From Clostridium sp. (GTDB taxonomy: Bacteria > Bacillota > Clostridia > Clostridiales > Clostridiaceae): 64,000 bases of DNA. The notes beneath the pieces were generated by a model. It worked only from the letters and a program-made list of their open reading frames with translations, was not told the origin of the DNA and did no database searches. The stretch covers positions 1 through 64,000 of the forward strand of contig NZ_JAENWM010000010.1 in NCBI RefSeq assembly GCF_016650035.1. The letters are read 5' to 3'. The position numbers were made by a program, and so were the translations under genes. Positions 2,983 to 59,914 of the stretch are shown piece after piece (the stretch's first letter is position 1; every line of letters begins with the position of its first letter).

Positions 2983-2997
2983 AGAGGTTCATATGGG

Positions 2998-3075
2998 GAG
3001 CCGGATGCCTAAATTGGGCACGTCCGGTTCTGAAAGGGGCGGTATCTGTGAAGATTACCGTCTACTTACCCAAAT
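2998..3075 (+). ncRNA. Group II intron 3' end (domain V and VI)
   Basis: GAGCCGGATGCCTAAATTGGGCACGTCCGGTTC (2998-3030) is a domain V hairpin; followed by a DVI-like GGTATCTGTGAAGATTACC and CTACTTACC 3' end. Confidence 0.8.
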
Positions 3076-6975: not shown

Positions 6976-6983
6976 ACCAGTGT

Positions 6984-7042
6984 TTGACAAGGGTCTGATC
7001 CCTTATACGGATTTGAAGTGAAACGGACAAGCTGTGTTGCTA
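6984..7042 (+). repeat. Dispersed structured repeat, copy C1
   Basis: TTGACAAGGGTCTGATCCCTTATACGGATTTGAAGTGAAACGGACAAGCTGTGTTGCTAA; ATACGG (7005-7010) pairs with CTGTGT (7032-7037) using two G-U wobbles. Confidence 0.8.
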
Positions 7043-7084
7043 ACTTTAGTGGTGCATGGTTCTAATCAATTTCCTTTTTTTATG

Positions 7085-9245: not shown

Positions 9246-9438
9246 GCAATTAAAAATAAGATATATGTAACAAGAAAAGCTTATTTTATAGAGAAATCTA
9301 TGGGGTAGGCTTTTTTCTATATTAGATTTAAACACAAATTAGTATTTGCTGACATAAATGTTACACTATATAGAGGTAATTGGGAATTAATGTAGAAATA
9401 TAGTTTGTGGATACTTAAATAATTAAAGGAGTATATTT

Positions 9439-10707
9439 ATGGATGATTTGAGACTATCAAATATAAAAAATAGTATTAATCAGTTAAAGGTGATATATAA
9501 CAAGAATGAAGAATTATTAAAGCAAACTGGAGAAAAGTTTAATATATTTTCAATACTAAATATGGAGAGATTAGAAGTAAGAACACATTCTGCTTTTATA
9601 TATGAATTGTTAAACCCTAAGGGGAGTCATTATCAGGGATATGAATATTTGAAGTTATTTATAGAAATAGTGCTAAAAATTGAGGACTTTAATTTTAAAA
9701 ATGTATTTGTAGATAGAGAAAGAAATATTAAAGAATTAGGCAGAGTAGATTTAGTAATTGAGAATAAAGAAAAGTTAATTATAATTGAAATGAAAATTGA
9801 TGCTGGAGAACAAGAGGAGCAGGTAAAAAGATATTCTGATTATGGCAAGCGAACTTGCAAAGAATATAAGATTTACTATTTGACGCTCTTTGGAACTGAT
9901 GCAAGTAAGTATAGTACTGGGTCAGATGAGGATATAGAATACACTCGTATATCTTTTGCAAGTGATATATTGCACTGGTTAGATGCTTGTATAAGATCTT
10001 ATAATACTCCTTTTCTCACTAGTATAAGAGAATCTTTAAGGCAGTATAGCAAATTAGTAAAGAAAATTACAAACCAAGTTGATGGAGGAATAGCAATGGA
10101 TATTAAAGACTTTTTACTAAAGGATGGTAACCTTGAAATTATAGATGAAGTAACAAAGGCAATTCCATATGCAAAGGCCGAGGTAGAATTTAATTTTTGG
10201 TACAATTTATATGAGAAGTGTGACAAATATATTCAGGATTGGGGGTATGAATTTGTTGGGTATGAAAATTTTCCAACAAATAAAATGGCTTCAATTGATG
10301 ATATAGTCACGGCTAGGAAAAGTAAAGATGGAGAGTACTTTATTGATTATTTTATAGGCTATTATAAAAAGTTAGAAGTTCGTTTATTAATAGCTAATGC
10401 TAGGCATGATACTCGTATTTATGCTTCTCTTTCGATTGTAGATACTGAGGGAAATTATATTTCATATGAAGAGTATGATGAAGAGATACTTAAAATAATT
10501 ATATCACTAGGCTTTGATAAGTCAGGAAGTATTAAATATAGATACTTAGAATATGACTTGAATTTTCAAGATAGCTACATTTATAAATTGGTGGATAAAG
10601 GTTATATGGATAAGTCAGTTGAATCTATTGGAAATGAGGTTCTTGATATATTTAAAGCCATAAATAACTCAAGTAAGTTAAAAGGATTATTAAATAATAG
10701 AGGATGA
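9439..10707 (+). CDS. PD-(D/E)XK nuclease family protein (PDDEXK_4-like)
   Basis: FNIFSILNMERLEVRTHSAFIYELLNPKGSH; GRVDLVIENKEKLIIIEMKIDAGEQEEQVKRY (D..ExK). Confidence 0.85.
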   Translation: MDDLRLSNIKNSINQLKVIYNKNEELLKQTGEKFNIFSILNMERLEVRTHSAFIYELLNPKGSHYQGYEYLKLFIEIVLKIEDFNFKNVFVDRERNIKELGRVDLVIENKEKLIIIEMKIDAGEQEEQVKRYSDYGKRTCKEYKIYYLTLFGTDASKYSTGSDEDIEYTRISFASDILHWLDACIRSYNTPFLTSIRESLRQYSKLVKKITNQVDGGIAMDIKDFLLKDGNLEIIDEVTKAIPYAKAEVEFNFWYNLYEKCDKYIQDWGYEFVGYENFPTNKMASIDDIVTARKSKDGEYFIDYFIGYYKKLEVRLLIANARHDTRIYASLSIVDTEGNYISYEEYDEEILKIIISLGFDKSGSIKYRYLEYDLNFQDSYIYKLVDKGYMDKSVESIGNEVLDIFKAINNSSKLKGLLNNRG

Positions 10708-11958: not shown

Positions 11959-11975
11959 CTATCTCATCCATTTAA

Positions 11976-12200
11976 TCGCAAATTAGTATTTGCTGACATA
12001 AATGTTATTCTATATAGAGGAAATTGGTAATTGATGTAAAAATATAGGTTTAGGATACTTAAATAATTAAAGGAGTACATTTATGGATGATTTGAGACTA
12101 TCAAATATGAAAAATAATATCAATCAGTTAAAGGTGATATATAACAAGAACGAAGAATTATTAAAGGAAATTGGAGAAAAGTTTAATATATTTTAAATAC
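11976..12200 (+). pseudogene. Third copy of the leader plus truncated 5' end of the PDDEXK_4 nuclease gene
   Basis: 12072-12195 (ATGGATGATTTGAGACTATCAAATATGAAAAATAAT...GGAGAAAAGTTTAATATATTTTAA) duplicates 9429-9550 and then stops. Confidence 0.85.
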
Positions 12201-12211
12201 TTAGAAACAAA

Positions 12212-12285
12212 AACTGTTCCAGCTTTTGACAAGGGTCTGACCCCTTACACAGATTGGAAGTTAAACGGACAAGCTGTGTTGCTAA
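12212..12285 (+). repeat. Dispersed structured repeat, copy F
   Basis: CAGCTTTTGACAAGGGTCTGACCCCTTACACAGATTGGAAGTTAAACGGACAAGCTGTGTTGCTAA; ACACAG (12247-12252) pairs perfectly with CTGTGT (12274-12279). Confidence 0.85.
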
Positions 12286-12319
12286 AGCTACAACCATAAA
12301 AACTCCATTTTTTTCTACG
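12283..12319 (+). repeat. 37-nt fragment of the downstream reverse transcriptase gene
   Basis: TAAAGCTACAACCATAAAAACTCCATTTTTTTCTACG equals 15087-15124 inside the RT gene with one A deleted. Confidence 0.9.
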
Positions 12320-12343
12320 TAGCAAAACAAATTATGTTTACAA

Positions 12344-12390
12344 TTTGTTCACGTACCCCGGGGGTTTTTATGAGCAAAGCGAATTTGCTG
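12344..12390 (+). repeat. Second repeat family, copy J
   Basis: TTGTTCACGTACCCCGGGGGTTTTTATGAGCAAAGCGAATTTGCTG. Confidence 0.75.
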
Positions 12391-12482: not shown

Positions 12483-13838
12483 ATGGTATATAACAGTTTT
12501 ATAAAATGTAGAGTATGTGAGAGTATAACTAGAGTTAGACTGCAGGTAGGATGGCAAGAACAACATCCAATTGTTATTGCTTGTGGAAAATGTGGTACTT
12601 CATTGTTGGGTAAAGTACATATAGGCCAAGTTGAGCCGGGATTGAAGTTTGAGTTTGATAATGCTGATATTTTAAGTAATGATGACAAGGCGGATTATCT
12701 CGTTGAATGTTCGGGCGAATTTCCTACAGTAAAACAGTATAATGGAGCGCAAGCACCAGAAATGGATATAACACCGTTTATCAGAAATCAAATGCGAATG
12801 GAGGAAGAAAATGGGTATGATAAGTTCGTAAATAGCGTATCAACATTAAATAAAACGGCTGAAAAGTGGACTGATTATAAAAGAGTGCTTGATTTATCCC
12901 AAAATGATAATAAAAGCTATTTGCTTCAGGAGATAAAGAAAATATTTTCAGAGGATGTATTTCCTTGTAGAAACGAATTTGAAATATTAAGGGCAATACA
13001 TATGATTGAAATTCATGGATTTATATCTCCACTTCGTAGAGATATTATTGATGATCTTACGATAAGTGACAGTGTATTGAAACTGGACATTGAACAGATC
13101 AGTGCACTGATAAAATATTTGAATTGTCACGATGGCTATAGTCTGAACGAACTTCAATCGCTGATTTACAAAATGCTAAATGAATTTATCGAAGTATATC
13201 CTTTCTTGATTCCGGCCTTTGCTACTCAGTTTTATAAAGAAAGTTTTGTAGACTTTGCAATTGAAGGATCAACAACAAGTACTTTTGATTCAGTAAAACA
13301 ATTTTATTTAGATGCATATGAAGCATTGGGAACACTAATGGTTTTACCGACGTCATTAAATAATATAAAATATCGTAGTAATTATGAATCAATCAAGGTA
13401 ATGGTAAACAAGGTAAAGTCTTTGGATGGCTTTATAGGTTTGACAAAAGCTAACAGGTTCCATTTCTGTAATGAAACAGAATCATATACGGAGAGTCTTC
13501 ATGTTATAGTTAATTCAAAATTGCGTAATGCAATAGGTCATAATGATGTTAGCTATGACACAATCACACAACAGATAACATATATTCCGAATCCAAAAGA
13601 TAGATCAAAGAAAGAGACTGCGTATCTGTTGGAATTTGAGAATGAAGCTGTGCGACTATTTCAGGCTATATTAGTTATATCGGAATATTTGTATAGGCTA
13701 AGAGAAGTTGATTTGATGAATCAAGGCAACATTCCAATTAATTCTAATACTCCAGTTAAAAGGCCTAAAAAGATTGGTAGAAATGATAAATGTTCATGCG
13801 GTAGTGGCTTGAAATATAAGTTTTGTCATGACAGATAG
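12483..13838 (+). CDS. Zinc-ribbon/SEC-C motif protein with HEPN-like RNAIGH motif
   Basis: N-term CRVCESITR...CGKCGTSLLG; C-term KKIGRNDKCSCGSGLKYKFCH (SEC-C); internal SKLRNAIGHNDVSYDTITQQI (Rx4H). Confidence 0.8.
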   Translation: MVYNSFIKCRVCESITRVRLQVGWQEQHPIVIACGKCGTSLLGKVHIGQVEPGLKFEFDNADILSNDDKADYLVECSGEFPTVKQYNGAQAPEMDITPFIRNQMRMEEENGYDKFVNSVSTLNKTAEKWTDYKRVLDLSQNDNKSYLLQEIKKIFSEDVFPCRNEFEILRAIHMIEIHGFISPLRRDIIDDLTISDSVLKLDIEQISALIKYLNCHDGYSLNELQSLIYKMLNEFIEVYPFLIPAFATQFYKESFVDFAIEGSTTSTFDSVKQFYLDAYEALGTLMVLPTSLNNIKYRSNYESIKVMVNKVKSLDGFIGLTKANRFHFCNETESYTESLHVIVNSKLRNAIGHNDVSYDTITQQITYIPNPKDRSKKETAYLLEFENEAVRLFQAILVISEYLYRLREVDLMNQGNIPINSNTPVKRPKKIGRNDKCSCGSGLKYKFCHDR

Positions 13839-14113
13839 TTCAGATGAATATTAAAGAAAAATAGACAAGAATTAAAAAATACCCTTCCGCCAAGGCCCCG
13901 ATAGGTTTTTAGGACATCATTATCACCGCCACAAGTCATGTAGAGTGCGTGGCGCGGATAGAGAAAAGTAATAGAAATTGATAGCCTCACAAAGCCAGTA
14001 ATAACTGTTTTTGCTAGCTTTGGGGAATTTTTTACGCATATATAACTATAACTACCACGAGAGTAGGTGTGTTTTCTTGTCCGTGGGAACGGGAATATCG
14101 CGTTAGCAAGCAA

Positions 14114-14159
14114 ATTGTTCACGTCCCCCGGGGGTTTTTATGAGCGGAGCGAATTTGAT
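14114..14159 (+). repeat. Second repeat family, copy K
   Basis: TTGTTCACGTCCCCCGGGGGTTTTTATGAGCGGAGCGAATTTGATA. Confidence 0.75.
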
Positions 14160-14562
14160 AAAAACACTATGTGTATTGAAATCGCCATTATCCATACAGT
14201 TGAACAAGTTATGTATAATAATGGGAACTTGAAAAAGTGAATATGAATACTTGCTTTAAGAGTTTCACAAATACCGTTAGTGAAAATAGCATATTAATTA
14301 ATATTTTAGTTAGATGCGCAGCTTGATAAAGTTCATGGCCTATAATATCGACACCATTCGGGTTACCCCTAGGAGTCTTTGCTAGGCCTTGGCTGAGATT
14401 GCTACGAGACCTTGTATGAGCTTGCTATTACACTTGATGGTGAGCCTATGTCCATTAGAGTAGAACTTATTTACTGTTTTTACCAAGTCACTGTTACCTT
14501 AGTGGGTCATGAAGTGGCCTGATTGCTAAGTTAAATCTGCAACCTGTATTTACTTTTTTTGT

Positions 14563-14621
14563 GGCTGACGCGACCCCGTTACATAAATTTGTAACTTAGT
14601 AGACAAGTTCTGTTTGCTACT
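14563..14621 (+). repeat. Dispersed structured repeat, copy G
   Basis: GGCTGACGCGACCCCGTTACATAAATTTGTAACTTAGTAGACAAGTTCTGTTTGCTA; ACATAA (14581-14586) vs TTCTGT (14608-14613), 5 of 6 pair. Confidence 0.8.
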
Positions 14622-14730
14622 ATATATACAATGATTTCATTTCTGATTTTTAACTTTGTGGATAAATGAAAATAACATGAAAAAATATTTATATTAATAA
14701 ACTTAAGAATAAAAAAGGTGGTGATTTAAT

Positions 14731-16848
14731 ACGGGAACGCAATATGATAAATTCATTTCAAAAGAAAATTTTATACTTGCTTATAAAAGATTGAAGACAG
14801 TTAAAAGAGACGAGTACAAAGAATTTTTTTACAAAGATTTTGAATGCTTCGAACTATTTTTTGAAAAAAATATCGATCAGCTTATTATTAATATTCGTGA
14901 GTATATATATATACCTCAAAATTGTGAAAAGTATTATATGCCAAAGAAGAAAAACTTGGCTCGTCCAATAAGTTTGCTGTGCCTAATTGATCAAATTGTA
15001 TATCAAGCGTTAGCCAATATTATAGCCGATATATTTTATCCGATAATGTTAAAATATTTTAATGCTAACACATTTGGAAATGTTTTTAAAGCTACAACCA
15101 ATAAAAACTCCATTTTTTTCTACGAGAGGTGGAAAACTCAATGGAAAAAATTTAACGATATAAAAAGAGCTTCTTACTATGTCGGTTACCATTATACAGC
15201 TGAATTTGACATTGCTTCTTTTTACGATACAATAGATCACAATATATTGTGCGAAATATTAAAAGAATATGGAATTCAGGATGATTTAATTGAAATGTTG
15301 AGATGGTGTCTTTCTCAGTGGACAGTGTCTCCAACTGCCAATTTTAAATTTAAAAAAAGCAATGGTATACCTCAAGGGCCTATAAGTTCCTCATTTATTT
15401 CGGAAATTTATTTGTTTAAAATTGATGAAGAACTTAGAAAACATAAAAACATAAAATATTTTAGATATGCAGATGATATTAATATAATGGCCAAATCGCA
15501 GATTGAGTGTCAAAAAATAGTTGTCTATTTAGATTTATTGGGTCGCGATTTATCTTTGATACCACAATCTGAAAAAATTGGTATTGTTTATATTGAAAAT
15601 ATAGACAAGCACATAAATACTGTATCTGCGAAATTTTCAAATATTGCTAAAGAATATCAAAAGAACAATAATAAATTAAAAACTAAAACTCATACAAAAC
15701 TAAAAAAACAACTTATAGATTGCATTAAAAATACCGATTTAAACAAAACCATTATCAGCTTTGCACTTTTTAAACTCGATAAAGATGATGATATAAAAAA
15801 TATTTTGTTGCAAAATCTTAATAAATTAGAATTATTTTATAAGGGTATTATTTATTATTTTGATAAGAATTACCCTTCGGATGATACCTTTATTAAATAT
15901 ATATCATCATACTTATTAGGGGATACGGTACTATATCAATACAATAAGTCATTGTTATTTAAAAGTTATAGAAGCTTAAAATTTGATGAAAAGGTATTTC
16001 ACTCTAACTATAAAAATGAGAAGAGATTTTGGATAGTAAAATATCAACTAATTAATTGGTTAAAAAATAATGAACAATTTGATTTAATAATGCAATTTGA
16101 TGAAAAAAACAATTACTACATACAGAGAGAAGTTAATTTTATAAAATATGAATCTTATAAAACTGACTATTCTAAACAAGTATTTTTAAAAAGCCTAATC
16201 TGCAGTAATGATGTTATGACTTCTTTACATGGTCTTAATATGTGGTATAAAGAATTTTCTCATAAACCAATAATTGATAATTGCAATGACTATATAAAAA
16301 AAATAATTAATGATGAAGAATATGATTATTTACAGTACATAATGGTTACTGAGTTTAATGTAGAAGTACCAGATAATTTTTTAGTTCTATGCAAAGAAAC
16401 ACAAATAGTATACAAAGAAATAAAAGATGATTTGAGAATTTACATAAATAAAAAGAATATTAATCCTAATGAGTCTTTAATGGCATTAGATTTATTTCAT
16501 AATATTTTATTTGATATAATTTCAAAGGATAAAGAGTATACAACAGGCGATTTTGGATCTGTATTAGATCAAATGGCAAGTGAATTTCCTATTGCTTATC
16601 ATTCATTTAAAGCTGTTCATGAAATTAGAAACCAAAAGACATTAGCACATTATAAAGATAAAAATGGTAAGCCAAGACTTAAAATATGTCAATCTGAGTT
16701 TGATAATTTCATACAAAGCATAAAATTACATGAGGCTTATGATGAAATTTTTATACACTATGGAGAAATATTAGCAGAGGCAGTCAAAGATAGTGGTGGT
16801 TTAATAGCAGCGCAACAAGTTGCAATAAGTCAAGATAAAGAGGAGTAA
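14731..16848 (+). CDS. Abi/UG-type reverse transcriptase with C-terminal HEPN-like domain (AbiA-like architecture)
   Basis: LARPISLLCLIDQIVYQALANIIAD, TAEFDIASFYDTIDHNIL, GIPQGPISSSFISEIYL, KYFRYADDINIMA (YADD); C-term HEIRNQKTLAHYKDKNGKPRL (Rx6H). First canonical start is TTG 14791, but coding similarity runs back to ACG 14731 after a GGTGGTGA RBS. Confidence 0.85.
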   Translation, partial: TGTQYDKFISKENFILAYKRLKTVKRDEYKEFFYKDFECFELFFEKNIDQLIINIREYIYIPQNCEKYYMPKKKNLARPISLLCLIDQIVYQALANIIADIFYPIMLKYFNANTFGNVFKATTNKNSIFFYERWKTQWKKFNDIKRASYYVGYHYTAEFDIASFYDTIDHNILCEILKEYGIQDDLIEMLRWCLSQWTVSPTANFKFKKSNGIPQGPISSSFISEIYLFKIDEELRKHKNIKYFRYADDINIMAKSQIECQKIVVYLDLLGRDLSLIPQSEKIGIVYIENIDKHINTVSAKFSNIAKEYQKNNNKLKTKTHTKLKKQLIDCIKNTDLNKTIISFALFKLDKDDDIKNILLQNLNKLELFYKGIIYYFDKNYPSDDTFIKYISSYLLGDTVLYQYNKSLLFKSYRSLKFDEKVFHSNYKNEKRFWIVKYQLINWLKNNEQFDLIMQFDEKNNYYIQREVNFIKYESYKTDYSKQVFLKSLICSNDVMTSLHGLNMWYKEFSHKPIIDNCNDYIKKIINDEEYDYLQYIMVTEFNVEVPDNFLVLCKETQIVYKEIKDDLRIYINKKNINPNESLMALDLFHNILFDIISKDKEYTTGDFGSVLDQMASEFPIAYHSFKAVHEIRNQKTLAHYKDKNGKPRLKICQSEFDNFIQSIKLHEAYDEIFIHYGEILAEAVKDSGGLIAAQQVAISQDKEE

Positions 16849-17035: not shown

Positions 17036-17108
17036 AGGTTTGAAAAAGGTTAATACAGTAACTTTTAATTGTAAAGTGAAAAGTTTTATAAGTAAAGGGG
17101 TAGTGGTT

Positions 17109-18026
17109 ATGTTTTTATATAAAATAGATGGTAATAACTTAGAAGAAATAAAGGAAAAGACTTTTTCAAAAGAGGTGGAGCTTCATAAGTTATGTGAAAA
17201 TAATTTAGAGGATATATTTGGGTTAAAGTTTGTTAGGAGAGAGTTCACTTTTAACAATTTTAGGCTTGATACTTTAGCATTCAATGAGAACAGTAAATCA
17301 TTTGTTATCATTGAATATAAAAATACTAGTAACTTTAGTGTTATAGATCAAGGCTATTCTTATCTTTCTTTAATGCTTAATAATAAGGCTGATTTTATAC
17401 TTGAGTATAATGAAAATTGTAATAGTACATTAAAGAGAGATGATGTGGATTGGTCACAATCAAGGGTTATATTTGTATCACCAGCCTTTAATAATTATCA
17501 AAAGGAAGCTATTAATTTTAAAGATTTACCTTTTGAGTTATGGGAAGTAAAGAGATTTACTAATGATACAATGTATTTTAATCTAATTAAATCATCCAAA
17601 AGTAGTGAGTCTATAAAGACCATAGCTACAAGTGGTAGTGAAGCTGATATTGTAAATACAGAAGTTAAAGTATATACAGAAGAACAGCACTTAAATAACT
17701 CTAGTGAGGAAATTGTTGAATTATATGATAAATTAAAAGATTTTATACTAACATTAGATGACACTATTGATATAAAAGCTAAAAAATTAGAAGTAGGTTT
17801 TATGTATAACAAGAAAGTCATGTTAGATATACATTTGCAAAAGAAAGCCTTGAAAATCTGGTTAAATACAAAGGTAGGAACGTTAGATGATCCTAGAAAT
17901 ATCGCAAGAGATGTTTCGAATACAGGACACTGGGGAAATGGTGATTATCAGATACAAATAAGTAATGACGAAGATATTGAGTATATATTTAGTTTGATTA
18001 AGCAGTTATATAAATCGAAGAAGTGA
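17109..18026 (+). CDS. PD-(D/E)XK-type nuclease with C-terminal DUF5655-like domain
   Basis: FRLDTLAFNENSKSFVIIEYKNTSNFSVIDQGYSYLSLM (D..ExK); C-term MLDIHLQKKALKIWLNTKVGTLDDPRNIARDVSNTGHWGNGDYQI; ATG 17109 preferred over TTG 17040. Confidence 0.8.
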   Translation: MFLYKIDGNNLEEIKEKTFSKEVELHKLCENNLEDIFGLKFVRREFTFNNFRLDTLAFNENSKSFVIIEYKNTSNFSVIDQGYSYLSLMLNNKADFILEYNENCNSTLKRDDVDWSQSRVIFVSPAFNNYQKEAINFKDLPFELWEVKRFTNDTMYFNLIKSSKSSESIKTIATSGSEADIVNTEVKVYTEEQHLNNSSEEIVELYDKLKDFILTLDDTIDIKAKKLEVGFMYNKKVMLDIHLQKKALKIWLNTKVGTLDDPRNIARDVSNTGHWGNGDYQIQISNDEDIEYIFSLIKQLYKSKK

Positions 18027-18130: not shown

Positions 18131-21043
18131 ATGGGGGATATTATGAATTCAATACTAGATAAAATAAATATTAAAGAAGATCATCAACTTAGTATTGATG
18201 ATGTTAAACATAAAGAAATAGAAAACACTGAATTCCTAGTCAATAACAAGCTAATAGTGAATTCAGAAAAAGGTAATCTATTAGATGAGCTTAAGAGATG
18301 CTTAAGTGACTGTGAGAAGTTTTATTTTAGTGTGGCATTTATTAATTTTAGCGGACTTCAGCTTTTATTGGATAGCTTTAAAGAACTTGAAGAAAAAGGT
18401 GTGAAAGGCAAGATACTAACATCCACATACCTTAATTTTACTGAACCAAAGGCTCTTGAAAGAATAAATAAGTTTAATAATATTGATTTAAAGATTTTTG
18501 TGGCTACTAATGAGAAAGGCTTTCATACTAAAGCATACATTTTTGAATATAAAGATGAATACAAAATAATTATAGGATCATCTAATATAACTCAAAGAGC
18601 TTTAAAGAGTAATGTAGAGTGGAATGTTAAAGTTATTTCTAAGAAAAACGATAGTTTTACCCGTGAGGTTTTGGAAGAGTATTTAAGTTTATGGGAAGTA
18701 ACTTCTATTGTAGATGATGACTTTATTAATAGTTATAGTAATTTTCTAAAGGAGATTAAAAAAACTGGGGAAAGCAAAAACTTAGACTTTAGTAATTATC
18801 AATTAATTAAGCCTAACCATATGCAAAAGAAAGCTATGGATAATTTGAGTAGATTAAGAGCTTCTGGTGAGATTAAAGCCTTGGTTATTGCTGCTACAGG
18901 TACAGGCAAAACATATATGTCAGCCTTTGATGCTGTGAGCTATAAACCTGAGAAGCTGCTTTTCTTGGTTCATAGGGAAGAAATATTAAGGAGTGCAGAG
19001 GAAACCTTTAAGAAATTAGTGAAGAATAAAAATAAAACTACAGGACTTTTAACTGGCACAAGTAAAGATTTGAACGCGGATTATCTGTTTTCAACTATAC
19101 AATCAATGAATAATAATCTTGAAAATTTCAAGCCAGATGAGTTTGAATATATAATCGTAGATGAGGCTCATCATGCTTCTAGCCCTTCTTATGCAAAAGT
19201 TATGGAGTATTTTAAACCAAGATTTTTACTTGGTATGACAGCAACACCAGAAAGATGTGATGGAGGTAATATATTCGATATATTTGATAATAATGTGGCT
19301 TTAGAATTAAGACTTAGGGAAGCCTTAGAGCTAGGACTAGTTATTCCATTCCACTATTTTGGTATATCTGATATTGAGGGTATTGACTTAAGTGATGTGA
19401 ATGTTCAGGATACAAATGAAATAGCTAAAAGATTAAAGGTTAATGAGAGAGTTGACTTTATTGTGGATAAGATGGAGTTTTACGGCTACGATGGAGAGAA
19501 ACGTAAAGGGGTAGGCTTCTGTGCAAGTATTGATCATGCTGAGTATATGGCAGCTGAATTTAATAAAAGAGGGATAAAAAGTATATGCTTAACAGGAGTA
19601 AATTCAGCAGATGAAAGAATATATTATATAAAGAAACTAGAATCAGATGAGGATGAATTAGAAGTTATATTTACTGTGGATATTTTTAATGAAGGTGTGG
19701 ATATACCAGCTATTAACTTAGTTTTAATGCTTAGACCAACTAATTCACCTATAATATTCATACAACAACTGGGTAGAGGACTTAGAAATCATAAAGAAAA
19801 ATCTTTTTTAACTGTATTAGATTTTATAGGAAATCATAAAAAAGTGTTTTTGATAGCAATAGCATTAAATGGTTCAAGATATTATGATAAAGATAGTTTG
19901 AAAGTAGCTGTGGCCACTCAGTTTGGGAATATACCTGGATGTACTAATATTCAAATGGATAGAATTGCTCAGGAAAGAATATTAGAGCAGTTAACTGACG
20001 AAAATTTTAATTCTATGAAATATTTAAAGGAAGAATATTTAGAATTTAAGATGATGAATAGTGGAAAAACTCCATATTTTCTTATGGATTATATAAAGTA
20101 TGAGGGAGCTCCAAATCCTTTGAAATTTTTAAATAAGGAAAAAACTTATATTGGGTTTGTGGCTAAAATGGAGAATGATGAAGCTTTAAAAAAATTATTA
20201 GAAGATGAAGCTTTTCTTAAAATCCTTAAAGAACTTTCAGCTAAGTTACCTATAAAAAGAGTATATGAATTTAGTGTAATTAAATATTTACTAATCCATG
20301 AAGATATAAGCTTTAAGCAAGCTAAAAATGAAATATTAAAGTATATTGAGGATGTAGATGATAATAGTATTATTCATGCTTTTCAGTGTTTGAATCAAAA
20401 CTACTATGATTCAGCTCAAGTTAAAAATAATATTAAATGCTTTGAACTTAATGAGGAAGTCTTAAGCCGTACATGGGCTTTTAAAACGGTAATATATAAT
20501 GAGAAATATAGAATGTACATTGAAGATGTTATAAATTATGCGCTTATAAGATATGAGAAAGAATTTGAAAGTAAGTATTATGGAGTGCCATTTTTTAAGT
20601 TATATGAACAATACCAAATGGTAGATGCAGCACTACTTTCAAATTATACTAAAATTCATAGCTCCTTCAGGGGGATCGGACTTATAGCAAATGGAAAAGA
20701 ATATTTTCTTTTTGTAGATTTACATAAAGAAGAAGATATTAAGGAAAGTATAAATTATAAAGATAAATTTAAAGATAGTAAATATTTTCAATGGCAAAGT
20801 CCCAATAGTACATCTCAAAGTTCAGAAAGAGGTAAAAACATTATTTTCAATAAACAAAGAGGGATTAACCTACATGTTTTTGTAAGGAAGTATAAGCAAA
20901 TTGATGGAGCTTCCGAGCCTTATATTTACATAGGTAAAGGTGATGTAACAGAATATGAAGGTGAAAAGCCGATAACTGTTCTAATGGAATTAGAACATGA
21001 AATGCCAGCGAATCTATATACAGAATTCACAAAAAAGGTATAG
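18131..21043 (+). CDS. PLD-domain/DEAD-DEAH helicase/DUF3427 protein
   Basis: PLD HTKAYIFEYKDEYKIIIGSSNITQRAL; Walker A AATGTGKT; DEAHH; QQLGRGLRNH; C-term FQWQSPNSTSQSSERGKNI...NLHVFVRKYK. Confidence 0.92.
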   Translation: MGDIMNSILDKINIKEDHQLSIDDVKHKEIENTEFLVNNKLIVNSEKGNLLDELKRCLSDCEKFYFSVAFINFSGLQLLLDSFKELEEKGVKGKILTSTYLNFTEPKALERINKFNNIDLKIFVATNEKGFHTKAYIFEYKDEYKIIIGSSNITQRALKSNVEWNVKVISKKNDSFTREVLEEYLSLWEVTSIVDDDFINSYSNFLKEIKKTGESKNLDFSNYQLIKPNHMQKKAMDNLSRLRASGEIKALVIAATGTGKTYMSAFDAVSYKPEKLLFLVHREEILRSAEETFKKLVKNKNKTTGLLTGTSKDLNADYLFSTIQSMNNNLENFKPDEFEYIIVDEAHHASSPSYAKVMEYFKPRFLLGMTATPERCDGGNIFDIFDNNVALELRLREALELGLVIPFHYFGISDIEGIDLSDVNVQDTNEIAKRLKVNERVDFIVDKMEFYGYDGEKRKGVGFCASIDHAEYMAAEFNKRGIKSICLTGVNSADERIYYIKKLESDEDELEVIFTVDIFNEGVDIPAINLVLMLRPTNSPIIFIQQLGRGLRNHKEKSFLTVLDFIGNHKKVFLIAIALNGSRYYDKDSLKVAVATQFGNIPGCTNIQMDRIAQERILEQLTDENFNSMKYLKEEYLEFKMMNSGKTPYFLMDYIKYEGAPNPLKFLNKEKTYIGFVAKMENDEALKKLLEDEAFLKILKELSAKLPIKRVYEFSVIKYLLIHEDISFKQAKNEILKYIEDVDDNSIIHAFQCLNQNYYDSAQVKNNIKCFELNEEVLSRTWAFKTVIYNEKYRMYIEDVINYALIRYEKEFESKYYGVPFFKLYEQYQMVDAALLSNYTKIHSSFRGIGLIANGKEYFLFVDLHKEEDIKESINYKDKFKDSKYFQWQSPNSTSQSSERGKNIIFNKQRGINLHVFVRKYKQIDGASEPYIYIGKGDVTEYEGEKPITVLMELEHEMPANLYTEFTKKV

Positions 21044-24076: not shown

Positions 24077-27000
24077 ATGGTAAAAGAAGGAATATACGAG
24101 CAAATTATATATGATGATCTTAAAAACCAATTAATAAAATTAGATTCAGACAAATATATTTTCCAAAAGCAACCCATTGATGTAGAAGAGGCTAGAACTC
24201 AATTATCAAGCTATGTTTCTTCCGTGGTAAAGAAATGCCTAAGGTTTATCAGAGAAAATAATAAGCAAAACGATAAGGAAGCATTGATTTCACAAATAAA
24301 AGCCTGCAATGAGCTCATTCAAGGCTTAAGTACACTTGCAGAGGATAAAAATATTGAAGGTTTCAAAATTGATGAGGAGGGCGAAATCCTTACAGCATTA
24401 TATTCAAAGATAAACAATATAAGAGGAGTCAAGGAAGGTAAAGCAATTAGGCCTGTAACTCCACTTTCTCAAAGTTCCCTCTTTACTGGTACTACTCAGG
24501 AACCTAATATGATGGGGGAGATAAAGAAGGAGATATTGTGTAGTGATTCTGTGGACATGCTTGTTTCCTTCATTAAATGGAGTGGACTTAGATGTATCTT
24601 TGATGAGCTTAAGGAATTTACTGATAATGATGACCATAAGCTTAGGATAATTACAACTTCCTATATGGGAGCAACAGATTACAAGGCTATAGAAGAGCTG
24701 AGTAAGTTGAAAAATACAGAGATTATGATTTCATATGATACAGATAGAACAAGGCTTCATGCAAAGGCTTATCTTTTTCAAAGAGAGACGGGATTTACTA
24801 CAGCATATATTGGCTCATCAAACCTGTCGAATGCAGCTTTAACCTCAGGTCTTGAATGGAATATAAAAGTATCAGAAAAGGATTCCTTTGATATTATAAA
24901 GAAATTTCAGGCTACGTTTGAAGGCTATTGGAATGATGATGGGTTTACCTCCTTTAATGGTCAGAGTGAAGAGGATAAAAGAAGGCTTAAAAGCTCATTA
25001 AATAAGGAGGGGAAAACTGATAATAGTGTAAATTTTATGTTTGATATAAAGCCTTATTATTATCAGAAGGAAATTTTGGAGAAACTGAAGGCTGAGAGAA
25101 CTTTATTTAATAGATACAAAAATCTCATTGTTGCAGCTACAGGAGTAGGAAAGACTGTAATAGCGGGGTTTGATTATAAGGATTTCACAAAGGCACATAG
25201 GAAAGATAAGAATAGGCTTTTGTTTATTGCTCACAGGGAGGAAATATTAAAGCAAAGCAGAGATACATTTAGGGCTATTTTAAAGGACAATAATTTCGGG
25301 GATTTATTTGTAGGTGGCAATGTTCCAGATTCATTAGATCACTTATTCATGAGCATACAAAGTTTTAATTCAACTAAACTCAATGAAAAAACTGAAGCTG
25401 ATTTTTATGACTTTATTATAGTGGATGAATTCCATCATGCTGAAGCACCTTCTTATCAAAAGCTACTAGATTATTATGAGCCTAAAATATTACTTGGATT
25501 AACTGCTACTCCTGAAAGAATGGATGGCAAAAATGTGTTGGAGCATTTCGATGATAGAATAGCCGCAGAAATGAGACTTCCCGAAGCTATAGATAGAAAG
25601 CTTCTGAGCCCATTTCAGTATTTTGCAGTTTCTGATTCTATTGATCTTTCTATACTTAAATGGACAAGAGGAGGCTATGACAAACAAGAATTAGAAAATG
25701 TATATACAAGTAATGATATTAGGGTAAACGGCGTAATAACAAGTCTTAATAAATATGTTACAGATATTGAGGAAGTTATAGGGCTTGGTTTTTGCGTAAG
25801 TGTTTTGCATGCTAAGTATATGGCTAATAAATTTAATGAGAGTGGAATACCTTCCATGGCAGTGCTAGGTGAAAGCAGCCCAGAGGATAGAAGTAGTGCT
25901 AAGAAGAAACTGGTAAGTGGAGAGGTTAAATTTTTATTTACTGTTGACTTATATAATGAAGGTATAGATATTCCTGAAATTAATACAGTGCTATTTTTAA
26001 GACCTACAGAGAGTTTAACAGTTTTTCTGCAGCAGCTAGGAAGAGGACTCAGACTTAGTGAAGATAAAGAATGTTTAACGGTCTTGGATTTTGTAGGCCA
26101 AGCGCATAGGAGTTATGATTTTGAGCAGAAATTCAAAGCTTTAATGGGAAGAGCAAAGCACTCAGTAGAACACAGTATAATTAATGGCTTTTTAAACCTG
26201 CCTAAGGGTTGTTATATACACCTAGAAAAGCAGGCTAAGGAATATATACTAAGAAATATAAAGGATGCAAGGGTTACCAAAGCTAATTTGATAAGCAAAT
26301 TAAAATATTTCGAAGGTGATACAGGCAAAGAACCTACCTTAAGTAATTTTTTAGAGCATTATAATTATACATTGAACGATGTGTATGGCAAAGGTGGAAA
26401 TAGAAGCTTTAGCAGAATGAAGGTTGAGGCCGGAATAATGCATGACTTTAAAAATAAAGATGAAGAAGTAATGACAAAGAGATTAAAAAATTTATTCCAT
26501 ATTAATTCACGAAAGCTTATTGAGTTTACAACGAATATATTAACCTGTGGTAGGATAATGCAAGGCTCTGAGTTTAATAAAGAAGAGAAATTAATGCTTG
26601 GAATGATATACTACAGTTTTTATTTAGAAGCACCATAAAAGCTTGGGTTTAATTCCTTTGAGAAGATTTTGGCTACTCTCTATGAGAATAATAAAGCAAT
26701 GATTGAAGAGGCATTTGAGATATTACAGTATAATTATTTGCATATTGATTTTGTTGATAAGTCTGTGGATTTAGGATCTATCTGTCCTATTGATTTGTAT
26801 TGCACATTTTCCACGGATCAAATCATGGCAGCGTTAGGATATTTTGATGAAAGTATAAAGCCAGCCTTTAGAGAAGGAGTAAAGCATTTTAAAGAAAAAA
26901 AGCTTGATGCTTTTTTCATAACATTAAATAAATCAGAGAAAGATTATTCGCCTTCTACACTGTATGAGGATTATGCTATCAATGAAAGGCTATTTCATTG

Positions 27001-27253
27001 GCAAAGTCAGAGCCGGACTACAGCGGTAAGTGATATGGGTCAGAGGTACATTAACCATGTGAATACTGGGAATAAGATAGTTTTGTTTGTACGTGAAAAT
27101 AAGAAAAAGGATGGATTAGTTGCAGCATATACTTACCTTGGAGAGGGAGAGTATGTTCGTCATAGCGGAAACAGTCCTATAAGTTTTGTGTGGAGACTTA
27201 AGGAAGACATACCTGCGCGACTTATGAGGGTGGCTAACAAGAGTATAGTTTAG
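24077..27253 (+). pseudogene. PLD-domain/DEAD-DEAH helicase/DUF3427 protein interrupted by an in-frame ochre codon
   Basis: 24077-26638 (HAKAYLFQ..YIGSSNLSNAAL; AATGVGKT; DEFHH) and 26669-27253 (DUF3427 C-term FHWQSQSRTTAVS...NKIVLFVREN) share a frame, separated by TAA 26636-26638. Confidence 0.85.
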
Positions 27254-34815: not shown

Positions 34816-34886
34816 AATGCAATGGACAACTTATACTTAATATTGTAAAATTGGAAGTAGTAATTACAATATGGGGTGAGAGGTTT

Positions 34887-37136
34887 ATGATAAACATTAA
34901 AAGGTTTGAAGAAATATTCAATATGGAAAATACTACTGAGAGATACAAAAGAATCTTATCTGAGATTCAGCCTGTTTTGGATGGCATTATGCATGATTTT
35001 GTTAATAACTATAGTGAACAGGATAGTTCATTAGTGAATTATGAGCTGAAAACTTATGAAGATACTCTAAGAAATACTGATAACGATTCTATAGATACTA
35101 ATTATGCTGAGGGAGATACATTTATAGGGAAAAGGGATTTTTCTGTTCTAATGAAAAAATTTGATAACGATGTAGAACTTTTCATATTAGGACTTACATG
35201 CTATGGAGAAAGTAGAGTAGTTCGAATAGGTATGGAAATAGAGTTTGATTATTTATGGCAAGTATTAAGATCAAATGATCTTGACGGAAGTGTAAATAAC
35301 CTGAGTGAAGATATTAAAATATTTTTAATAGAAGCTCCATTTGAGGAAATACCTAAAGAGAAACTTGTGGAAACTATTAAGAAAACATCAAAATCTAGAA
35401 AGAGGTCTCCGATCTTTATTGGACTTGAGATATCTTTTGAAACTATAGACGATGAGGTTGAATTAGTTAATAGTCTATGGAAAGTATGGTGTGAACTTGA
35501 GAAATTAAGAAAATTCAGTTTGGACAATTCAGTTGTACAGAGCAAGTCTTCAGGTGTATTAAACCTAATAAAAGGCTATAGTGAAGATTTAAAAATAAGT
35601 CTTTATGAACATGAATATGAGGTTAAGTTTGGTGAAACTCAAAAACGTAATTCGCGAGCGGGGTACTATCAAAAGTACATGCTAAATGAAAATGGACAGA
35701 TGGTCACTAGCGGAGTTATAAATTATTATAAAAGGAATAGTGCACAATCAACATATGAGATGTTAAGTGTGTATGTAAATGGTCTTGAACAAATATATAC
35801 AAGTCCAAGAGTACTGTTTGAGAAAGATAAAGTGAAATGGTTTATAAAGAAAAGTTTTGCAAAACATGACCAGGACAATGCAATTCTTTTAACAAAAGCA
35901 ATGGAGAGGCTTAGAACCCATGGTTTTGAAGTTAGAGACAATAAGTACTATATTGCAACCTTTGATAATTCCACCATGAATTTTACAGAAAATATTCGTC
36001 AGGTTAAGGAACGTCTTCTAAAAGCAGCATTAATATTTGCCGATACTAGTAAAGTAATAACTCTGCCCAAAGAAACTATTATTGAAGCAGGTGTAGATAT
36101 AGCTGATGATAATGATGACGGTACAGAAGGTGAGGAGGCCGAATATATAGGTAATTTTGATTTGACTGAAATTATAAAGGTTTTTGAAGAGAGTAAATTT
36201 ATTTTTACCGTGGATACTATTAGGGATTTTCATCTAAACCTCACATCACTCGGCGATAAACATTTTGTAATATTAAATGGTATATCCGGTACGGGTAAAA
36301 CTCAGATATGCAGTATTTATGCAAATGCTGTATATGGACTAGCATATGAAGAGCAGAATCCGTATTTAAAAGTAATACCTGTAAGGCCAGACTGGATGGA
36401 TTCTACCGCGCTATTTGGTTACTATAGTGCGCTTCAAAAGAGATATGTCATGACTGAGTTTTTAAAATGTATACTTAATGCATTAGAGGAAAGAGATAAG
36501 CCTCATTTTATAGTACTGGATGAGATGAATCTTGCAAGAGTAGAGTATTACTTAAGTGATTATTTAAGTGCAGTGGAATCAAGAAAACCAATAAGGTTAC
36601 ATAGTGAAAATAATATTGAAAATATTCCAGAGGAAGTTGTAATACCTCCTAATATATATATTATTGGTACTGTAAATGTAGATGAAACAACTTATACTAT
36701 TTCAGATAAAGTTTTGGATAGGGCATTTGTTATGACATTATCAGATGTTAATTTAGAAAATTATTGGGAATCCAAGGAGCAATCTATAAGGGATAAATTT
36801 GAGAGTGAATATATTATATTATCAGAACTACATAGTATATTAAAGCCTTATAATTTACATTTTGGATATCGTTCTATGGATGAAATGATAAGTAAAATAA
36901 GCGCAAATGCAAATTTGAAAAGTAATCTTCAAATGGAGAGGAAAAGTATGCTGGATAGAGTAATTTGTGAAAAAGTTTTTCCTAAGATAAGGGGAGATGA
37001 AAGTATAGAAAATCTAATTAGTAGATTACTACAGTGGGCTAATAAACACTTTAGTGAAGGTTCAGAGGTTGAAAAACATCTATTAAGAATGGAAGGAGAA
37101 CTTGAACGCTATGGAACAGCTCAGTTCTGGAGATAG
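34887..37136 (+). CDS. mcrB: McrB-like AAA GTPase/ATPase
   Basis: LNGISGTGKTQICSIYANAVYG; VLDEMNLARVEYYLSDYLSAVESRK; NIYIIGTVNVDETTYTISDKVLDRAF. Confidence 0.85.
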   Translation: MINIKRFEEIFNMENTTERYKRILSEIQPVLDGIMHDFVNNYSEQDSSLVNYELKTYEDTLRNTDNDSIDTNYAEGDTFIGKRDFSVLMKKFDNDVELFILGLTCYGESRVVRIGMEIEFDYLWQVLRSNDLDGSVNNLSEDIKIFLIEAPFEEIPKEKLVETIKKTSKSRKRSPIFIGLEISFETIDDEVELVNSLWKVWCELEKLRKFSLDNSVVQSKSSGVLNLIKGYSEDLKISLYEHEYEVKFGETQKRNSRAGYYQKYMLNENGQMVTSGVINYYKRNSAQSTYEMLSVYVNGLEQIYTSPRVLFEKDKVKWFIKKSFAKHDQDNAILLTKAMERLRTHGFEVRDNKYYIATFDNSTMNFTENIRQVKERLLKAALIFADTSKVITLPKETIIEAGVDIADDNDDGTEGEEAEYIGNFDLTEIIKVFEESKFIFTVDTIRDFHLNLTSLGDKHFVILNGISGTGKTQICSIYANAVYGLAYEEQNPYLKVIPVRPDWMDSTALFGYYSALQKRYVMTEFLKCILNALEERDKPHFIVLDEMNLARVEYYLSDYLSAVESRKPIRLHSENNIENIPEEVVIPPNIYIIGTVNVDETTYTISDKVLDRAFVMTLSDVNLENYWESKEQSIRDKFESEYIILSELHSILKPYNLHFGYRSMDEMISKISANANLKSNLQMERKSMLDRVICEKVFPKIRGDESIENLISRLLQWANKHFSEGSEVEKHLLRMEGELERYGTAQFWR

Positions 37137-38622
37137 ATATAGCATGCAAATATTTGATGAAGTGGAAAAGGGTTGGGTGAAAATTGAGGAAGCTTATTTA
37201 GAGGAAGCCAAAATGTATTCTTGGAGAATAAATAATGAAAAATTAATATATATTACAATGCAAGGAATGCCACTATCGATGATTAAAAGCTGTGGCAGTG
37301 GCCATAATTTCAATGGCTTTTCTGGTACTATACAGACTCCTTTTGCCTCAGGAATAATTGACTTTAACATAAATATAGATGGTAGTACTCAAAAAGTAAA
37401 ATCCTTTGTATATCCGGACAGTAGAAAGATTACATTAAAGCAGTATGAAAATATGATTTATGATATATTGGAGGAAGCAAATGTTTGTTTAAAGTATTCA
37501 GGCCTTGGAATGTCTATTGATACCCATGGAGCGCAAAGAAAAATTTCCTTTGCACAATGGAATTATATACAAAGAAGCATGGCGAAGCTTAAGAGGATAT
37601 TTAGTAAAATAGAAGAGGCTCCACTTAAAATGCTTATAAAGAATGAATTATTAACTGATTTAGAAAGAGTTAAAAAAATTGGTATAAAAACTGAAAACTG
37701 GATAGAGAAAAATGGACCTAGATTTGGTGGAACTGAAAATAAGTTGCCAAATTACATAAAGGTTATTAGCTCAGAAGAAACCTACGATATATATGAAAAT
37801 AAGGTTATAAAATTTCAACTTATGGAACTCCAAATGATGCTCCGAAAGTATTGCAGAGTGGAGTATGAAAAGATTAAATTAAAAGCAAGGCAATATTTAG
37901 ATTTAGTCAACTATTGGCTTGCAAATTCTTATTTGGCTAAGGTACAACCCTATAAAGGAAAGGTTGCCATATCTCAGGTATTTAGAAAGCATCCGGTTTA
38001 TAGATTATGGTATAACTGGTTTCATGAGTTATATAATCATAAAAAGTGGAAGGCGGGGTTAAAGACGAATTTCCCGCTAAAGGATACTTTTCAAATATAT
38101 GAAATATGGGCATTTATGCAGGTAATTAAAATTTGCAGGGAATTAGATGTTTTAGAAGATACTTCTGGCATTTATTTAAAAAATGTGGATGGCATATTAT
38201 TGGAGCTCTGTGAGCATAATGAAAGCAAGATTGTGCTTAAAAATGGAGGCTTAATATATTATCAAAAATCTTTTCAACGTAACTCAAAACCTTACTATAC
38301 TTATACTCAGAGAATGATACCGGATATTATACTGGAGTTTAATGGAGAACTGCTTGTGTTAGATCCAAAGTATAGGGTAGATGCTAATTTAGGAGTTGCG
38401 CTTGCTGAAATGCACAAGTATAGGGATGGAATATTAAGAAAAGGTGATGATTGCAGAGTAGTAAGGGAAACTTATATATTAGCACCGATAAAAGGAGAGC
38501 AGTCAAAGAAATTATTTGAGAAGGAATATCATAAAAGATATGATATGGGTGCTTTTGTTTTTAAGCCTGGCGGTGAGATACAAGAATTTAAAGATTTTCT
38601 TCGTAAAAAGTTATTGTTGTAA
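37111..38622 (+). CDS. McrC-like protein (DUF2357 plus PD-(D/E)XK)
   Basis: Overlaps the McrB gene; PDIILEFNGELLVLDPKYRVD nuclease motif. Confidence 0.85.
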   Translation: MEQLSSGDRYSMQIFDEVEKGWVKIEEAYLEEAKMYSWRINNEKLIYITMQGMPLSMIKSCGSGHNFNGFSGTIQTPFASGIIDFNINIDGSTQKVKSFVYPDSRKITLKQYENMIYDILEEANVCLKYSGLGMSIDTHGAQRKISFAQWNYIQRSMAKLKRIFSKIEEAPLKMLIKNELLTDLERVKKIGIKTENWIEKNGPRFGGTENKLPNYIKVISSEETYDIYENKVIKFQLMELQMMLRKYCRVEYEKIKLKARQYLDLVNYWLANSYLAKVQPYKGKVAISQVFRKHPVYRLWYNWFHELYNHKKWKAGLKTNFPLKDTFQIYEIWAFMQVIKICRELDVLEDTSGIYLKNVDGILLELCEHNESKIVLKNGGLIYYQKSFQRNSKPYYTYTQRMIPDIILEFNGELLVLDPKYRVDANLGVALAEMHKYRDGILRKGDDCRVVRETYILAPIKGEQSKKLFEKEYHKRYDMGAFVFKPGGEIQEFKDFLRKKLLL

Positions 38623-59586: not shown

Positions 59587-59827
59587 TATAACACCTCCTA
59601 AATTTATGTTGGATAAAGTAAAAAATAGAAAAATTCAGAATATTTAAATTAATTATATCATAATTTGTCGATAATTCAACTGATACTATAGTGCCAAGTT
59701 GTCTATTAGGGTAGAATAAAGCGAGGCAAGTATAAAATATATGTTGATTTCCATATAAGCACGTGTTACAATCACCTGAGATATTAGCAATAAAAACAAT
59801 ACGAAAATTTAAATGATTTATATAGTT

Positions 59828-59914
59828 TTCTAGGGTTCCGCAGTTTATGACTGGACTGGTCCAAGAGAGGACGCACAGTTAATGTGTACACGGAAGGATA
59901 AAAGCCTGGGAGAT
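59828..59914 (+). ncRNA. Guanidine-I riboswitch (ykkC RNA)
   Basis: CTAGGGTTCCG ... GACTGGTCCAAGAG ... ACACGGAAGGATAAAAGCCTGGGAGA matches the conserved ykkC core. Confidence 0.93.

Follow-up and report, generated by a model that had tools for sequence, protein, structure and literature searches.

A UG19-family reverse transcriptase with a HEPN-like C-terminal domain among candidate defence genes of a Clostridium genome

What does a stand-alone reverse transcriptase (RT) with a long C-terminal tail do amid the candidate defence genes of a Clostridium contig? The window analysed here, a stretch of 64,000 nucleotides, carries such a gene on its + strand (14731-16848). An earlier note, made from the letters of the window, had read it as a UG/Abi-type defence RT of AbiA-like architecture. 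The identity of the enzyme, the nature of its tail and the company that it keeps in other genomes are taken here in turn.

A member of the UG19 family

The gene has an intact frame, open from 14725 to 16848 with its stop at 16846-16848 and with 705 codons counted from 14731, and it encodes an RT domain followed by a helical domain and a HEPN-like domain. A Pfam scan of the protein returns RVT_1 (residues 71-287, 14941-15591, E 4.6e-20) as its sole match, with no maturase domain. The motif A aspartate D160 (15208-15210) and the Y and both D of the YADD box (residues 246-249, 15466-15477) do not vary among the 31 aligned relatives, and the catalytic aspartates D160, D248 and D249 are all intact in the window protein. 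The best PADLOC model is RT_UG19 (E 3e-157), matched over profile positions 2-559 of 562 and nearly the full protein; RT_UG21 comes second (E 5.7e-53) with a match that ends at residue 444. The UG19 profile also matches every one of the 31 aligned relatives and is the best model for all ten that were scanned singly. Judged by sequence, the window gene is a new member of the UG19 family, and the proposal of a UG/Abi-type defence RT is borne out by this score and by the intact catalytic core. The enzyme likewise stands alone, as had been suggested: it has the YADD box and lacks a maturase domain, the gene is accompanied by no group II intron RNA, and the protein is placed outside the group II intron RTs, the UG19 profile being far better.

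The likeness to AbiA holds for the layout (RT, helical domain, HEPN) and fails for membership. Assignment to AbiA was rejected on the UG19 score and on the absence of any AbiA model from the 25 best PADLOC matches of the window protein, whereas a true lactococcal AbiA (L097) matches the AbiA profile at 8.5e-189 and no UG19 model. BLASTP of the window RT against this AbiA gives no significant alignment of the RT domain, hhalign of the same AbiA against the window-family profile reaches no more than 52% probability over the RT core, and the Pfam family HEPN_AbiA_CTD (PF18732) has no match anywhere in this genome. The protein is therefore UG19 and not AbiA.

An AlphaFold2 model built on the 31-row alignment (pLDDT 84.8, pTM 0.77) predicts the RT, a long all-helical domain and a terminal helical bundle. 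The middle domain (residues ~291-555, 15601-16395) appears HEAT/alphaRep-like from the model, from Foldseek and from weak Pfam HEAT_2 matches in four relatives, and none of its columns is conserved in 90% of the rows. The window protein thus has the fusion of an RT to an alphaRep/HEAT-like helical domain that is a feature of Class 1 UG RTs. In Foldseek searches the RT part is matched best by group II RTs, and the matches over most of the length are UG15/DRT4, AbiK, AbiA, Abi-P2 and DRT6. Among tyrosines outside the RT domain none stands out as a primer, except for the Y402 column at 84%.

The C-terminal domain

The long C-terminal extension bears the expected R-x4-6-H pattern in the form R633-NQKTLA-H640 (16627-16650), which is the only Rx4H or Rx6H in the whole protein. 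Because shuffled tails of the same composition contain one or the other by chance in 20% of cases, the motif of a single sequence proves little. Conservation tells more: not one of the 31 aligned relatives departs from R633 and H640, and the spacing between them is six in 24 and four in seven. Most of these relatives were gathered using search patterns from the RT core alone, which kept the tail out of the selection. The 31-row alignment has 30 invariant columns, 27 of them in the RT core; P620, R633 and H640 make up the rest.

Does the tail also fold as a HEPN domain? AlphaFold2 predicts a helical bundle at residues ~558-687 (16402-16791), with a pLDDT of 86.5 when the tail is folded alone, in which R633 lies near the end of the helix 620-636 and H640 in the following loop. 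Foldseek with the tail alone repeatedly finds HEPN toxins of MNT/HEPN systems (7ae6, 7ae8, 7ae2, 7ae9, 8yuf) at TM 0.39-0.52 and weak E-values of 0.8-6; FAT domains and helical bundles of other kinds are among the matches too. Searches of the tail with HEPN sequence profiles give no PDB hit and no credible Pfam hit, and hhalign against the AbiA-type HEPN scores 2.6%, though the two R/H motifs are paired in that alignment. The HEPN fold put forward in the earlier note is weakly supported: a helical bundle is predicted, and HEPN toxins recur with the best TM-scores (0.42-0.52) at E 0.8-6. Since a fold that is weak alone comes together with an invariant and correctly spaced R/H pair, a HEPN-like domain is the best assignment for the tail, given the alignment and the models.

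Distribution and gene neighbourhoods

Single-protein scans of genome and viral contigs returned nothing, and a search with a three-sequence alignment reached 80 loci in genome contigs and no locus in viral contigs; plasmid and phage records hold no full-length relative. Christensenella hongkongensis (L005) has the closest relative, with 51% identity over the whole length. The 31 aligned relatives come from 12 phyla, and in the tree, which spans these, the window protein adjoins Christensenella and then G612 and Anaerosalibacter with support of 99-100%. None of 207 other genomes from its family, among them 16 of the same genus, carries the gene. UG19 is rare more widely, with one positive genome in 391 from the class (E 1e-60) and four in 399 drawn from the phylum (E 1e-50), this genome included in both counts. 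One relative (L024:7974-8918 and onward) has its UG19 RT split into two frames of 314 and 382 aa, the second of which retains an R-x6-H.

The flanking genes had been described as candidate defence genes, which PADLOC and Pfam confirm. Upstream of the RT lie RhuM (PDC-S05), a PD-DExK protein (PDC-S26), a NERD nuclease and a SEC-C protein (12483-13838, + strand). This last, just upstream of the RT, is probably a second HEPN protein: it matches Pfam SEC-C above the cut-off and the HEPN family pEK499_p136 below it (E 0.018), and has an R-x4-H of its own (KLRNAIGHND). Downstream on the + strand follow a DUF5655 protein (17040-18026; PADLOC candidate PDC-S18, Pfam) and a PLD nuclease-helicase-DUF3427 protein resembling type IV restriction enzymes (18131-21043; PADLOC mREase_IV 4.8e-167, Pfam), then a second PLD-helicase gene of the type IV restriction kind, a Nudix gene, a DNA methylase and a PDC-M26A gene. 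The second PLD-helicase (mREase_IV, 24077-27253) is broken into two parts (24077-26638 and 26669-27253), for which a frameshift or stop may be responsible, and the AAA McrB-like PDC-M26A gene (within 34851-38622) overlaps a partner that looks McrC-like.

At 11970-12201 there is a decayed duplicate, 92% identical to 9326-9557 around the start of the PD-DExK gene. The adjacent stretch 12203-12387 is a patchwork of 43-67 nt pieces joined with short overlaps, which match 2694-2750, 6977-7043, 14111-14157 and 15081-15124 (93%, within the RT gene); from its sequence it looks like template-switching filler DNA. A match resembling group II intron domain V (Intron_gpII, 2996-3070) is the sole such hit in the window, 11.7 kb from the RT gene and with no recognised intron RT alongside, and a Guanidine-I riboswitch is found at 59819-59914.

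What surrounds the gene in other hosts? In three loci it follows type I restriction genes: HsdM and HsdS with the RT 7 nt on (L010); HsdS overlapping the RT by 7 nt, with a Fic-like gene over the RT end and then HsdR (L015); and HsdM followed by an HsdS that overlaps the RT by 3 nt (L035). Elsewhere the gene order is BrxC, PglX, RT in a BREX setting (L028), DrmA and DrmB with the RT 51 nt on in DISARM (L006), pAgo, SIR2, RT (L021), a NERD-UvrD helicase and then the RT (L011), and a DrmMI-like methylase separated from the RT by one gene (L022). In two related loci Fic-like genes (L008:5017-5684 and L015:10032-10693) overlap the end of the RT by 6 nt. All-against-all BLAST of the neighbours found no recurring partner gene. 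Frames of 193-222 aa after the RT were considered as a conserved partner and rejected, BLAST and inspection finding them mostly unrelated (Fic-like, membrane and others). From these individual loci, and with no single partner recurring, UG19 appears to be a stand-alone module that is often placed in restriction-type operons.

Polymerase assembly or ribonuclease

How might such a protein act? On balance, sequence, structural models and analogy make it probable that the window encodes a horizontally acquired, single-gene, protein-primed and probably untemplated UG19 anti-phage polymerase whose subunits are paired through their HEPN domains. Upon infection the RT would prime synthesis on one of its own side chains and make DNA with no nucleic-acid template, and pairing of two or more subunits by the HEPN domains would yield the active polymerase; all three steps are modelled on the architecture common to Abi/Class 1 enzymes. 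Untemplated, protein-primed DNA synthesis is described for the Class 1 UG RTs AbiK, AbiA and DRT3b (PMC11077055, PMC12632851, PMC13174585), and in AbiA the HEPN domain mediates dimerisation and its deletion abolishes synthesis (PMC11077055). The R/H site, since it is kept across 12 phyla, probably has a catalytic or regulatory job in addition; RNA cleavage would be the default guess in this least certain step. In many hosts the gene would act as a module inside an operon of the restriction type, probably providing a second line of defence. A literature search found no assay of any UG19 member.

Alternatively, the HEPN domain may be a killing arm. Either the DNA product of the RT or the failure of neighbouring restriction would release an RNase, and cleavage of tRNA or mRNA would then halt the cell, in the manner of PrrC beside type I restriction enzymes. 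In favour of this stand the R and H, which all 31 relatives keep with canonical spacing, and the genomic company: UG19 follows HsdS in type I operons of three loci (L010, L015, L035) and occurs in BREX, DISARM and pAgo-SIR2 operons, the RT end is overlapped by a Fic-like gene both in L008 and in L015, and RhuM lies upstream in the window. HEPN RNases such as PrrC and RloC are often found in restriction-modification operons, where RhuM and Fic genes can accompany them (PMC3710099). AbiA, however, argues the other way. It keeps the R/H pair, yet defence is unimpaired in R581A/H588A mutants, RNase activity went undetected and cultures showed no abortive infection (PMC11077055). The pair is also conserved in the AbiA relatives L096 and L097, so that conservation is no guarantee of a role that such tests would detect. 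By analogy, a polymerase with HEPN-mediated assembly is the most likely reading and an RNase effector a possible one, with about one third of the weight. More ambitious, and distinctly unlikely, is the proposal that UG19 would be a second RT-HEPN lineage apart from AbiA, serving as a fail-safe in restriction-type operons in which a DNA signal from the RT would turn on the HEPN RNase once restriction has been blocked or overwhelmed.

The start codon

Is the window copy still expressed? An ACG occupies the start-codon position (14731-14733), and a Shine-Dalgarno-like AGGTGG (14716-14721, + strand) lies 9 nt before it. In the Christensenella relative an identical AGGTGG precedes an ATG at the matching place, and the N-termini correspond (MGKQYDDF against (M)GTQYDKF in the window). 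A start at 14731, as in the earlier note, is supported in its position by the Shine-Dalgarno and by the relative's ATG, but the codon is ACG and not ATG, GTG or TTG. The next standard start in the frame is a TTG at 14791, which would cost 20 residues, with no ATG, GTG or TTG before codon 21. Since Christensenella has ATG and AGGTGG at this place, translation very probably began at 14731 originally, and in this assembly the natural start seems to have been turned into ACG. ACG is capable of weak translation initiation. The codon may thus serve weakly as a start, or may reflect a recent loss or an error of sequencing, and the copy may be poorly expressed or unexpressed.

Could the window copy, with its start codon lost, be a gene in decay? 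The ACG where the closest relative has ATG, a first standard start at codon 21 and the decayed gene copies upstream of the RT all fit with decay, whereas the remaining frame and all catalytic residues are intact, the Shine-Dalgarno is retained, and the ACG may initiate weakly or the base may be an assembly error. Decay seems an unlikely account.

Template RNA and introns

A dedicated non-coding RNA, copied by UG19 as in DRT2, DRT9 and DRT10, is very improbable. Room for one is offered by the 890 nt intergenic gap upstream of the window gene (13839-14730), but this gap is largely a mosaic of short repeats dispersed through the genome, with more than 20 partial matches there and no Rfam match, and an upstream RNA was rejected on these grounds. 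In L008 and L015 frames overlap the RT on both sides, so that a template RNA has no space beside the gene, an argument that concerns flanking RNA and not RNA within the coding sequence or elsewhere. The weakest reading, a group II intron or retron RT with no defence role, is strongly disfavoured and deserves next to no weight: an RVT_1 domain and a weak match to the maturase model of group II introns (99.9 bits, where the cut-off is 300) are set against a far better UG19 profile, the absence of a maturase domain and of intron or retron RNA at the gene, and the presence of the helical and HEPN-like domains.

Comparison with known systems

Within its own family (PADLOC RT_UG19, PDLC03756) the window protein shows no essential difference: the match is full-length, the RT, helical and C-terminal regions are the same and R/H is retained, the copy differing in its ACG start and in a YADD where most UG19 have YVDD. 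PADLOC names no HEPN domain for RT_UG19. A description of one was not found in the literature either, the main UG/Abi classification (NAR 2022, gkac467) lying outside this search, and the domain may already be annotated there. The second-best profile, RT_UG21, has 503 positions and leaves the HEPN-like tail outside its match. AbiK, Abi-P2, DRT4 (UG15) and DRT6 likewise combine an RT with a helical domain and match by Foldseek over most of the length; AbiK and Abi-P2, unlike the window protein, have no HEPN domain (PMC11077055). Class 2 DRTs (DRT2/9/10) carry a conserved cis-encoded ncRNA, from which UG19 differs in the overlapping neighbours of L008 and L015 and the lack of an Rfam hit. The anticodon nucleases PrrC and RloC are likewise HEPN proteins embedded in restriction operons, but have an ABC ATPase instead of an RT, so that the analogy is one of position alone.

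The repeated placement of UG19 in restriction, BREX and DISARM operons invites the question of whether its RTs are second-line modules of restriction systems. The closest parallel in architecture remains AbiA of Lactococcus (PDB 8oz7), for which the HEPN domain was called a distinguishing feature among Abi polymerases (PMC11077055). It shares the order RT, helical domain, HEPN and has an R-x6-H near its C-terminus, and a lactococcal plasmid copy of AbiA lies near a LlaJI restriction gene; AbiA is a separate family by profile, its RT cannot be aligned by BLASTP and its HEPN family leaves the window domain unmatched. The AbiA study found its R/H pair dispensable, and a separate, phylogenetically broad RT-HEPN family with a strictly invariant pair would permit a direct test of what HEPN does in defence polymerases.
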